Positions 50,144 to 53,151 of a stretch of 64,000 nucleotides of DNA are shown here, piece by piece. The first letter of the stretch is position 1. The number at the start of each line of letters is the position of its first letter. A program made the translations under genes and the position numbers. Below the pieces are notes generated by a model, which was not told the DNA's origin, searched no databases, and saw only the letters and a program-made list of their open reading frames with translations. The DNA is taken from assembly GCA_031178005.1 (NCBI GenBank), contig JAPSJV010000015.1, forward strand, positions 1 to 64,000. The letters are read 5' to 3'. Source of the stretch: Pseudarthrobacter sp. (GTDB lineage: Bacteria; Actinomycetota; Actinomycetes; Actinomycetales; Micrococcaceae).

Positions 50144-51475
50144 ATGAGCCCGGTCCTTCTTTTTATCCTCGGTGTGGTCTTTGTGGCCATCGGCATTGCC
50201 GTGTCCATTGCCCTCCACGAGGTGGGTCACCTGTTGCCTGCCAAACTGTTCAAGGTACGGGTCACCAAGTACATGATCGGCTTCGGCCCTACGCTCTGGT
50301 CGCGCCGTAGAGGTGAAACGGAGTACGGAATCAAGGCCATCCCGCTGGGCGGCTACGTGTCCATGATCGGGATGTACCCGCCCAACAAGGACGACGGCGG
50401 TGTCCGGCCGTCCAGCACCGGAATGTTCCAGACGCTTGCTACCGAGGCCCGCTCTTTGGCGCATGAAGAAGTGGGCCCGGCGGACCAAGACAGGGTGTTC
50501 TACAAGCTCCCGGTCTGGAAAAAAGTCATTGTGATGCTGGGCGGCCCCGCCATGAACCTGCTGATCGGTGTCGCGCTGACCGCAGTGCTGCTGATGGGTT
50601 TCGGTGCGGCTACGGCAACCACCACTATCTCCGATGTTTCCAAGTGCCAGGTGGCGGAGGGGCAGACGGTGGATCCGGAGTCCGCTGACTGCCGGCCCAC
50701 GCCCGCTGCTGCCGCCGGGCTGCTGCCCAACGACGTCGTGACGTCCTTTGACGGCAGGGCTGTCACCGAATGGAGCGAACTCACCGAGTGGATCCGGGCT
50801 GCAGCCGGCCGCGAAGTGGCAATTACCGTGGAGCGCGCAGGAGCCCAGGTTTCCACCACGGTGACCCCCGTCCTGACCGCCCGTCCGGTGGTTGGTCCGG
50901 ACGGCCTGCAGGCAAAGGACGACGCCGGGCAACCGCTGTACCAGGACGTCGGGTTCCTGGGCATCGGCGCCAAGACCGCCTTGGTTCCCCAGCCGGCGTC
51001 GAGCGTCCTGCCAATGGCGGGGGAGAACATCCGCCAGGTGGCCGGCGTCATCCTGAATCTGCCCGCGAGGGTGGTGGGAGTAGCCCAGGCGGCCTTCAGC
51101 TCCGAACCGCGTGACCCCAACGGGCCCATCAGTGTTGTGGGTGTTGGCCGGGTAGCCGGCGAGGTGGCTGCCATGGAGGAGATCCCCGTTGATGCGAGGG
51201 TGGCCACCCTGGTGGGATTGTTGGCCGGCCTCAACTTTGCCTTGGCCGTCTTCAATTTGGTGCCGTTGCTGCCGCTGGATGGCGGGCACGTGGCCGGGGC
51301 CCTCTATGAGGGTGCGCGCAGGCAGGTTGCACGGCTGTTCAGGAAGCCCGATCCGGGTGCTTTTGATATCGCCCGCCTTCTGCCGCTGACCTATGTTGTG
51401 GCGGTCCTGCTGATGGGTTTGAGCGCCCTGTTGATCTACGCCGACATCGTAAAGCCGATTAACCTCTTCGGATAG
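50144..51475 (+). CDS. rseP: Site-2 intramembrane metalloprotease
   Basis: The product is 443 aa. HEVGH in LHEVGHLLPAK (about residues 25-29) is the zinc site, and NLVPLLPLDGGH near the C-terminus the third ligand. A PDZ-like domain lies between about 150 and 280. It cleaves membrane anti-sigma factors after a first cut; Rip1 is the actinobacterial relative. It follows dxr as in other genomes. A strongly A/T-rich region follows the stop. Confidence 0.92.
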   Translation: MSPVLLFILGVVFVAIGIAVSIALHEVGHLLPAKLFKVRVTKYMIGFGPTLWSRRRGETEYGIKAIPLGGYVSMIGMYPPNKDDGGVRPSSTGMFQTLATEARSLAHEEVGPADQDRVFYKLPVWKKVIVMLGGPAMNLLIGVALTAVLLMGFGAATATTTISDVSKCQVAEGQTVDPESADCRPTPAAAAGLLPNDVVTSFDGRAVTEWSELTEWIRAAAGREVAITVERAGAQVSTTVTPVLTARPVVGPDGLQAKDDAGQPLYQDVGFLGIGAKTALVPQPASSVLPMAGENIRQVAGVILNLPARVVGVAQAAFSSEPRDPNGPISVVGVGRVAGEVAAMEEIPVDARVATLVGLLAGLNFALAVFNLVPLLPLDGGHVAGALYEGARRQVARLFRKPDPGAFDIARLLPLTYVVAVLLMGLSALLIYADIVKPINLFG

Positions 51476-51477
51476 AT

Positions 51478-51497
51478 ATCAACTATATACGGTTGAT
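51478..51497. promoter_or_regulatory. Inverted repeat before satD
   Basis: ATCAAC-N8-GTTGAT (51478-51497) with another GTTGAT at 51548-51553, 2 bp before the ATG. The 80-bp gap is A/T-rich, unlike its neighbours, and has no clear ribosome site before the satD ATG, so the mRNA might be leaderless or start elsewhere. The repeats may be an autoregulatory operator. Confidence 0.45.
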
Positions 51498-51555
51498 TAT
51501 CCAAAATAAGACAAATTTGATTGATTGTTTCTGATAAGCCGGTTACGGTTGATCC

Positions 51556-52257
51556 ATGTACGTCCTGACGATCGACCAGCGTGGAAGCAGATCTGACCGG
51601 GACCGGGTTCCGGCGCTGCTGGAGGAGTTGCGGGCGCTCGGATTTCCGGCATTTGAACGATCTGTGGGTGATGAGCTCCAAGGTGTTGTTGGCGGGGCGG
51701 CCGACGCCGTCGACATTGCATTGCATGCCCTGCGGAGCGGTCACTGGTACGTGGGAATCGGCCTGGGAGACGCAACGGTGCCCGACGGCGGAAGTCCCCG
51801 GGAGGGCATCGGCCCCGCCTTTGTGGCTGCACGCACGGCAGTTGAACTCGCCAAGGCCGCAGCAAGCCGGGTCCCCTTGTCAGTGGTGGCCGGCATACTG
51901 GTCCCGAAGAACGCAGGGGAGGCGGACATGGTGGTTGATTCGGCAGATGGTACAGATGCCAAGCTGGCCAGTGCGGACGCGGAGGCAGTGCTGCGGTTGA
52001 TTGGAAAGCTTCGCCAGGAGCGTACTGACGCGCAGTGGAAAGTTGTTGACACACTGCAGGCATTGGAGGGTGGCACATTCCACGGCGTCCAGAAACAGGC
52101 AGCGGAACGCCTTGGCGTCACTGAACAGTCCGTCAGCCGGACTCTCCTCCGATCCGGATGGCAGGAAGAGAAAGCAGCGCGCCCGGCGGCCGCACGCCTG
52201 CTTTGCCTCGCACACCGGGCAGTGCTTAGTGCCACGACTGATACGGAGAAAAGCTGA
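51556..52257 (+). CDS. SatD-family protein with C-terminal helix-turn-helix
   Basis: The product is 233 aa. N-terminal region TIDQRGSRSD (Asp7), FERSVGDELQG (Asp39-Glu40), WYVGIGLGD and GIGPAFVAARTAV match the SatD-family pattern. These blocks also look like the metal Asp, GDE and strand of nucleotidyl-cyclase/GGDEF folds. The C-terminus has a helix-turn-helix (GVQKQAAERLGVTEQSVSRT, about 177-196). SatD was named in the acid-tolerance locus of Streptococcus mutans. The gene overlaps the membrane gene at 52257 by 1 nt. Confidence 0.75.
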   Translation: MYVLTIDQRGSRSDRDRVPALLEELRALGFPAFERSVGDELQGVVGGAADAVDIALHALRSGHWYVGIGLGDATVPDGGSPREGIGPAFVAARTAVELAKAAASRVPLSVVAGILVPKNAGEADMVVDSADGTDAKLASADAEAVLRLIGKLRQERTDAQWKVVDTLQALEGGTFHGVQKQAAERLGVTEQSVSRTLLRSGWQEEKAARPAAARLLCLAHRAVLSATTDTEKS

Positions 52258-52790
52258 TGGATGCTGCCTGGCTTGATGCACTGTGGGTTGCCGGAACTTT
52301 GCTGGCTGCGGGCTTTGCCGGCTGGCCGGTGACAGTCGGAGTCTTTCGCCTGGCGCGGAGCATTGACGAGAAAACCGATGAGCCCCTTCCTGGACCGGAT
52401 TCAACGGCCCTGATCAATGATCCGGCGGCCGATGTCACCGTCGACATTGCGCGGGCGGACACGGCCGCGCCTGCCGGAACCGCGGCATCCGATAGTACCG
52501 AAAGCACTGACGTCCACCCGGTTGAACTTCCGCCCGCCGTTCCCGTCACCGAAACCATCCTTCGGGGTGGCGCCATTATCGGCGTGCTGGAGCGGCTGGC
52601 GGTCGCCGTTGCCATCCTGGCCGGTCAGCCGGTGGCCATTGCCTACGTCGTGGCGATCAAGGGGTTGGGGCGGTTCGCCGAGCTGAAGGAAACTCCGGCG
52701 GCAGCCGAACGGTTCATCATTGGCACGTTGACCTCCATGCTTTGGGCAGCCGGTGTGGCCGCGGTGGTCAAGGTTGTGGTCTTGGGCTGA
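52257..52790 (+). CDS. Membrane partner of SatD (DUF3307 C-terminal-like)
   Basis: The product is 177 aa. One N-terminal membrane segment (residues about 10-30), a disordered acidic linker (about 36-95), then GGAIIGVLERLAVAVAILAGQPVAIAYVVAIKGLGRFAELKE and a last membrane segment. That C-terminal block recalls DUF3307 proteins, which often sit beside satD. It starts in the satD stop codon, so the two are expressed together. Function unknown. Confidence 0.7.
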   Translation: MDAAWLDALWVAGTLLAAGFAGWPVTVGVFRLARSIDEKTDEPLPGPDSTALINDPAADVTVDIARADTAAPAGTAASDSTESTDVHPVELPPAVPVTETILRGGAIIGVLERLAVAVAILAGQPVAIAYVVAIKGLGRFAELKETPAAAERFIIGTLTSMLWAAGVAAVVKVVVLG

Positions 52791-52857: not shown

Positions 52858-53151
52858 ATGACTGTTTTTGCCGTTGAGTACGTGTATACCGCCGATGCCA
52901 CCGAACTCCGGGACGAGGCCCGTCCTGCTCACAGGGAGTGGCTGGCCGGGCTGGAAAGCGAAGGCCAGCTGTTGGCCAGCGGGCCCTACGGGGACGGCGA
53001 AGGTGCGCTGCTCATCTTCAAGGCATCCAGCGAATCGGACCTGACGGAGCTCCTCAAGCAGGACCCGTTCGCCACCGCCGGCGTCATTGCCGGCATCCGG
53101 ACTACTGAGTGGAAGCCGATCATCGGCCTGCTCGCGTCCCACGCTTCCTAG
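52858..53151 (+). CDS. YciI-family protein
   Basis: The product is 97 aa with a small ferredoxin-like fold. YVYTADATELRDEARPAHREWLAGLESEGQLLASGPYGDGEG (key residues R-x-H-x(5)-L and SGP) is the YciI pattern. Its role is unknown; YciI-like enzymes occur in degradation pathways. It ends 42 nt before ispG. Confidence 0.85.
   Translation: MTVFAVEYVYTADATELRDEARPAHREWLAGLESEGQLLASGPYGDGEGALLIFKASSESDLTELLKQDPFATAGVIAGIRTTEWKPIIGLLASHAS

Follow-up and report, generated by a model that had tools for sequence, protein, structure and literature searches.

A divergent SatD relative with a predicted class III cyclase-like fold, a coupled membrane partner and phased palindromes over its predicted promoter in Pseudarthrobacter sp.

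The DNA analysed here (the window) is a stretch of 64,000 nucleotides from Pseudarthrobacter sp. (NCBI GenBank assembly GCA_031178005.1, contig JAPSJV010000015.1), whose genome assembly (G000) amounts to 3.1 Mb and is 69% complete. The genes of interest follow the order dxr, rseP, satD, membrane partner, YciI-like gene and ispG, where dxr, rseP and ispG are presumed names. An initial annotation, made from the sequence alone, had described a 233-residue SatD protein coupled to a membrane gene. The 233-aa open reading frame is found at 51556-52257 on the plus strand, starts with MYVLTIDQRGS and contains G38-D39-E40 and the blocks WYVGIGLGD and GPAFVAARTAV, while the 177-aa open reading frame of the membrane partner (52257-52790) starts within the satD stop codon (TGATG). 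A YciI-related gene is located at 52858-53151, between the partner and ispG. The earlier observation holds, and it understates what the locus contains. The features are as follows:

50144-51475, rseP, a site-2-protease gene (Pfam Peptidase_M50 and PDZ)
51476-51555, promoter gap between rseP and satD, with ATCAAC/GTTGAT inverted elements within it
51478-51497, no strand, putative operator site 1, a 20-bp palindrome ATCAAC-N8-GTTGAT
51506-51525, no strand, putative operator site 2, 20 bp, 28 bp past site 1
51521-51526, predicted -35 element TTGATT, inside the right half of site 2
51534-51553, no strand, putative operator site 3, 20 bp, 28 bp past site 2
51544-51549, predicted -10 element TACGGT, inside the right half of site 3
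51556-52257, plus strand, SatD-like protein, 233 aa, stop included
51556-51900, plus strand, class III cyclase-like domain, approximately residues 1-115, with Asp7, Asp39, Glu40 and Arg93
52087-52155, plus strand, helix-turn-helix, residues 178-200
52257-52790, plus strand, membrane partner, 177 aa, its start overlapping the satD stop (TGATG)
52560-52775, plus strand, conserved partner module, residues 102-173, LRGGxxIGxLER ... KGLGRFxELK ... ERFIIGTLxS

This arrangement is widely kept among close relatives. In the best 80 of 503 relatives, all from Arthrobacter-like genera, an rseP homologue occupies the same locus in 80/80, and in 73/80 the start of a partner carrying the GGxxIG motif falls between -60 and +150 nt from the satD stop. 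Two of the seven loci that miss the partner (L117 and L141) end soon after satD; the others include L099, L108 and L147, as well as L152 (on the contig of L009), where the partner starts at +151, and L155 (on the contig of L330), where it lies 1.5 kb further along. On this last contig, the satD-partner interval of about 1.5 kb (L330:2484-4037) contains a 300-aa open reading frame rich in G-V-x-G repeats.

The name SatD, as used in the initial annotation, stands as a statement of homology and falls short of formal family assignment. The Pfam SatD model (PF16264), which has a gathering score of 29 bits, did not match the window protein at E<=1, nor did it match anything in the genome of origin. 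The window protein gave only weak HTH-type matches in Pfam and NCBIfam, and for the SatDs and partners scanned nothing in NCBIfam exceeded the cut-off. Homology can nevertheless be traced through profile bridges. A profile built from 16 window-type sequences (A1) matched 18/296 phylum genomes at E<=0.001, compared with 17/296 for PF16264, with at least one of the A1 matches (G358, L049) being to the HTH only, on a response regulator. Places found by both profiles occur in G372, G230, G282, G206, G185 and G212. That in G372 has an A1 value of 1.6e-43 and a PF16264 value of 4.5e-6, above the cut-off with its neighbours, while those in G230 and G282, also above the PF16264 cut-off, have A1 values of 4.4e-9 and 4.0e-8. 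In a 15-row alignment that includes canonical and archaeal SatDs, M1, D7, S11, G38, D39, E40 and G86 are invariant, and 10/15 rows match PF16264 at E<=0.01. Given these bridges and common motifs, the window protein is, on sequence grounds, a divergent SatD relative below the formal cut-off. It shares with PF16264 members the motifs D7, S11, G38-D39-E40 and G86, a C-terminal HTH and, in those examined, a next gene that often carries the C-terminal module of the window partner. It differs in reading D-Q in place of the D-[I/V/L] of the 16 canonical members, and in an Arg at position 35.

A SatD homologue can be found in 145/149 genomes of the bacterial family to which the window belongs, often in several copies. 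One genome carries canonical-type and window-type SatD genes about 1 kb apart (G361:C1:1490064-1491992; L036, L053), and in three loci of one genus (L022, L030 and L023, at about 700-1420 of the locus) a degenerate SatD-like gene with no Asp7 motif lies directly upstream of the satD-partner pair. Searches of viral contigs with the window protein and one canonical protein as queries, and of phages with two canonical proteins, returned no relatives. PADLOC gave no match for the five proteins submitted.

The initial annotation had also proposed a class III cyclase or GGDEF fold. A related fold is indeed present in the predicted model, in which the class III matches are better than those to GGDEF domains. 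The AlphaFold model of SatD, based on 65 aligned sequences, has a pLDDT of 92.0 and a pTM of 0.89, and the strands of its cyclase-like domain span residues 2-8, 33-35, 40-45, 64-70 and 108-112. Foldseek returned nothing at E<=0.001 for this model. Its first row, 3onq, is an unrelated polyketide-synthase regulator (E 0.020, probability 0.63, rmsd 18.6), and the next rows are the mycobacterial adenylyl cyclases 1ybu (E 0.022, probability 1.00) and 4wp9 (E 0.038, probability 0.98). In a second structural alignment, rows 1-46 are all nucleotidyl cyclases, with Z from 10.1 to 8.4 and several entries of one protein among them; the best structure, 8qfi, aligns at Z 10.1 with an rmsd of 2.8 over 125 residues, and GTP cyclohydrolase III and GGDEF domains rank below the cyclases at Z 8.2-8.3, in a comparison where best Z values of 7-8 are common in any case. 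The structural alignments mostly cover model residues 1-155. We predict that SatD adopts the class III nucleotidyl-cyclase fold.

Sequence comparison with cyclases depended on the breadth of the profile. The close-relative profile matched a set of 20 class III cyclases (A4) weakly (E 0.022, probability 2%), while a diverse SatD profile matched the same 20 at E 1.4e-4 with a probability of 52.6% and aligned Asp7 and Asp39 with the two metal-binding aspartates. A sequence search of solved structures with the window protein found none at E<=10, and a profile search of the same kind found three at E<=1: a designed helical repeat protein, a chain RBL4 and, over the HTH part, Cro. The viral fold library gave nothing at E<=0.001.

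The residues of the predicted pocket were followed through 184 aligned sequences (138 Asp7, 30 Asn7 and 16 canonical), from which homologues carrying any residue other than Asp or Asn at position 7 had been excluded before counting. Asp39 and Glu40 are invariant (184/184), which bears out one of the two aspartates emphasized initially; the other is kept only in part, with Asp7 in 154/184 and Asn7 in 30 paralogues. Arg93 is retained in 137/138 Asp7, 30/30 Asn7 and 12/16 canonical sequences. Position 89, four residues before this Arg, corresponds to the site at which cyclases carry an Asn that stabilizes the transition state, and it is Asn in 0/184 sequences. Class III cyclases also use a Lys to select the base; its place is taken by Arg in 166/168 sequences of the window group and is mostly hydrophobic in canonical SatDs. 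SatD thus has the fold of the class III cyclases (PF00211; Z up to 10.1 with the predicted model) and both of their metal Asp positions, whereas it lacks the transition-state Asn and the substrate Lys, and the window protein has no PF00211 match. Since the transition-state Asn is absent, the fold does not imply activity and an ordinary cyclase is unlikely. We read this as a pocket that may still accommodate nucleotide and metal, yet is not that of an ordinary cyclase. A GGDEF enzyme was rejected, the motif being SVGDELQG, with no GGDEF/GGEEF signature and no PF00990 match. Two further homologues (L206 and L210) have TFIQ at the place of Asp7 and have thus lost the first metal position as well.

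Residue 7 also divides the homologues by their surroundings. We compared 98 non-redundant genes from family and phylum genomes plus two plasmids (68 Asp7 and 30 Asn7), the classes being defined by residue 7 itself. Ten open reading frames with no T-x-[D/N] motif or usable start were excluded (L186, L038, L210, L206, L072, L043, L056 and the second copies in L022, L030 and L023, the last of which apparently lacks Asp39 too). The partner follows 60/66 Asp7 genes with enough sequence, compared with 0/29 Asn7 genes (Fisher p 8e-19, for sequences that are related and not independent). The genome of origin itself carries an Asn7 paralogue without a partner (L002:1240-1839, contig C58), whose neighbour we take to be a HAD-type hydrolase gene. 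In four Asn7 paralogues (L160, L165, L167 and L174), a single perfect ATCAACC-N6-GGTTGAT palindrome lies at -39, a hint that operators may be common to both classes.

The membrane partner is likewise recognizable through its C-terminal part. In a 46-row alignment, most invariant columns fall within residues 102-163, and residues 102-173 align with the C-terminal ends of ten proteins that accompany other SatDs (probability 98.5, E 2.5e-15, 43% identity over 72 columns). The resemblance to the C-terminal part of DUF3307-type proteins (PF11750) noted initially is therefore real, and it lies outside the Pfam DUF3307 model: Pfam at E<=1 assigns no family, DUF3307 included, to the window partner, and the DUF3307 domain was present in 2/6 other SatD partners scanned (L072 and L048), covering their N-terminal part only. 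This N-terminal domain is what the window partner lacks in comparison with DUF3307 proteins. In Halorientalis and Haloplanus, an annotated DUF3307 gene overlaps the SatD gene. The model of the partner is modest and helical (pLDDT 75.5), and nothing better than E 3.3 was found for it in the PDB. Partner profile matches occur in 111/148 family genomes. Of 34 matches fetched because their SatD neighbour was unlisted or apart, 33 lie downstream of a SatD gene of the same orientation, up to 1.5 kb away, the exception lying near a contig end; the remaining matches were compared with the list of SatD homologues by eye only.

The inverted ATCAAC/GTTGAT elements noticed in the rseP-satD gap proved to be part of a regular array, well above chance. 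When 74 upstream sequences (the window and L076-L148) were aligned at the ATG without gaps, 20-bp palindromes were found at -78 to -59, -50 to -31 and -22 to -3. Over lags of 8-45 bp, the best self-match is at 28 bp (0.541, against a mean of 0.260 and an sd of 0.066), and the window alone has the same best lag (0.560, z 3.3). With ties broken at random, the best lag between 21 and 40 bp is 28 in 77/81 close loci, and it is 28 or 29 in 56/68 Asp7 genes compared with 1/30 Asn7 genes (Fisher p 3e-14); the close loci and the Asp7 genes overlap in organisms (e.g., L004/L130 and L005/L121). The spacing is found in Asp7 genes with rseP in the flank (28/37) and in those without it (28/31). Among 32 upstream sequences collected later around partner matches, 25 have a best lag of 28 or 29, namely 24/25 of the window type and 1/7 canonical ones, the sole canonical case being no better than shuffles. 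In this later set, 31 of the 32 are new, L330 repeating L012/L155, and the start of L316 is probably wrong.

The array also accompanies SatD genes on plasmids. Six of seven named plasmid SatDs have it, each matched by at most 1/200 shuffles, with a spacing of 28 bp in Sphingomonas and Agrobacterium and of 29 bp in Tsukamurella (window-type), Halorientalis, Haloplanus and Natronosalvus, where the stretches of Halorientalis and Haloplanus are near-copies of one another. The seventh, from an Arthrobacter plasmid (L289), is without an array. No uniform picture emerges for canonical actinobacterial SatDs, whose best lag is 28 in 4/12 and 29 in 1/12, scored without shuffles. A two-site pattern at 28 bp with up to three mismatches was found in 72/101 genomes of the genus, compared with 0/101 for the reversed control, and 30/30 of the places fetched lead into satD. 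Single sites in the genome of origin number two at satD and six scattered at up to one mismatch; at up to three mismatches there are 603 against 200 reversed, a difference that could reflect a regulon or base composition. A fourth operator overlapping the end of rseP was rejected, its register being off by one base.

Two of the three palindromes coincide with the predicted promoter. A gap of 17 bp separates the predicted -35 hexamer from the -10 hexamer, which ends 6 nt before the ATG, and a leaderless satD start is predicted. Both features are in line with actinobacterial promoters, although a general sigma-70 promoter scan called no promoter in the gap. Counted from the ATG, T is found at -35 and at -7 in 74/74 aligned sequences each; the right half of site 2 supplies TTGAT at -35 in 70/74, and that of site 3 supplies TA at -12 in 71/74. 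The pairs that these T positions form within the palindromes, -46/-35 (kept in 1/74) and -18/-7 (kept in 4/74), are the least conserved of the seven half-site pairs within their respective sites (2 and 3), while site 1 retains its equivalent pair in 51/74. Other imperfect pairs are -45/-36 (20/74) and -22/-3 (17/74). That the palindrome is weakest at the promoter T positions would be best explained by two overlaid constraints, operator and promoter.

SatD itself is the likely candidate to bind these sites. The C-terminal helix-turn-helix proposed initially is evident in the model, with helices at 178-186 and 190-200, and HTH families are matched in some relatives; the sequence match of the window protein is weak (HTH_8, E 0.0058, below cut-off). 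The half-sites drift across lineages (ATCAGC/GCTGAT, ATCAAC/GTTGAT, ACAAG/CTTGT, TGCAA/TTGCA and TATGCA/TGCATA), and in most rows they appear to track the SatD helix. Out of 68 rows, 59 were scored, 9 being dropped for scores under 17. Rows with an AVSxR helix have C before TTG in 17/22 cases, compared with 1 of 28 rows with other readable helices, which otherwise have G (12), A (7), T (2) or no readable core (6), counts that ignore ancestry. Nine scored rows, the window among them, have no readable helix motif and stand outside both helix groups; two of them count as C, the window (in 2/4 half-sites, without an AVSxR helix) and one other. In the archaeal locus L075, an AVSK helix is paired with GGTTGTA. 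The array argues for DNA binding by SatD.

Published information on SatD, in those parts of the sources available to us, consists of an acid-tolerance label, expression and protein-level data, and essentiality. In the accessible part of one study, satD occurs in 178/249 S. pyogenes genomes and alone among the accessory genes ranks in the uppermost quarter of the essentiality range (PMC11323703). A published sRNA-target entry, as far as it is accessible, annotates SatD as a 'DNA-binding protein'. The literature searched, which excludes most subscription journals and is in part accessible only as excerpts, yielded no study of SatD DNA binding, of the array or of the fold, and no function for the SatD and DUF3307 families. 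Proteins that combine a cyclase domain with an HTH are already known. According to the available portion of the source, Mclx proteins join a cyclase homology domain to a LuxR HTH, so that a cyclase-type domain precedes a C-terminal HTH as in SatD, and two of the three, like SatD, are without some canonical catalytic residues (PMC4452763). Judged against that same portion, SatD differs in having no AAA/NB-ARC part and in its membrane partner and phased operator array.

Taken together, the predicted cyclase fold with its metal-Asp positions, the HTH, the coupled partner and the phased palindromes over the predicted -35 and -10 elements make it probable that SatD is a one-component autorepressor which has a cyclase-like sensor and restrains production of the membrane partner. 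SatD dimers would fill the phased sites cooperatively and thereby block RNA polymerase. The cyclase-like pocket would bind a metal-nucleotide ligand as a sensor and not as an ordinary cyclase, and the state of this ligand would set DNA binding. The membrane partner would be the regulated product, kept low or in balance with SatD. A concrete function would emerge for the family: a DNA-binding protein that regulates its own genes, with a defined operator, a sensor of the cyclase type and a membrane partner closely tied to it. The essentiality of satD in S. pyogenes would fit a SatD that keeps a harmful partner in check as its repressor or antitoxin and, within the accessible part of that screen, offers a possible reason for satD being essential yet accessory; the published result concerns a distant SatD, and dependence on a partner lies outside it.

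Several other readings of the same evidence were weighed. Toxin-antitoxin operons have the regulator first, an overlapping second gene and palindromic operators at their own promoter, and all three properties recur here. SatD could accordingly be an autoregulating antitoxin or repressor in a toxin-antitoxin-like module, with the partner harmful once freed. The antitoxin-first order with its stop/start overlap, the phased palindromes, the SatD upstream of 33/34 fetched partner places and the essential-accessory behaviour of S. pyogenes satD, as described in the excerpts available, lend this some credence as a minority reading. Unlike such operons, however, SatD has a cyclase-like sensor fold and a membrane partner and is widespread in the bacterial family (145/149 genomes, with the partner in 111/148), more like a resident function, and PADLOC recognized nothing. 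An enzymatic role seems improbable; under that reading, SatD would act as a nucleotidyl cyclase or cleave nucleotides in some other way, its product would carry a signal to the partner, and the HTH would be of secondary importance. Cyclases head the structural matches (adenylyl and guanylyl), the two metal-Asp positions are kept and Asp39 and Glu40 are universal (184/184), but position 89 is never Asn (0/184), the base-selecting Lys has given way to Arg (166/168) and PF00211 is not matched.

The remaining two readings concern the array. If SatD activated its own promoter, site 1, upstream of the -35 element, would be suitably placed; sites 2 and 3, however, cover the predicted -35 and -10 elements, which is the usual layout for a repressor and leads us to infer repression rather than activation, so that activation is improbable as well. 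The array might also belong to another regulator and precede satD by chance, binding by SatD being a proposal drawn from sequence. This we regard as very improbable, as the array stays with satD irrespective of rseP (28/37 and 28/31) and also on unrelated plasmids, in most rows its half-site changes along with the SatD helix, and the Asn7 paralogues are without it (1/30).

Autorepression by SatD could also be one instance of a wider design. In a broader and rather speculative version, which we consider unlikely as a whole, SatDs would form a bacterial and archaeal repressor family in which a cyclase-fold metal-nucleotide sensor is set in a regular helical row on the DNA, the spacing being kept while half-site and helix drift together, and in which the restrained partner is harmful when released. 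Harm by the released partner would make satD both accessory and essential. An operator geometry recurring in Alphaproteobacteria, Actinobacteria and haloarchaea with drifting sequence would offer an unusually clear example of how a protein and its DNA sites co-evolve. At an assumed 10.5 bp per turn, the 28-bp spacing would correspond to about 2.67 turns of the helix, and the three sites to eight turns.
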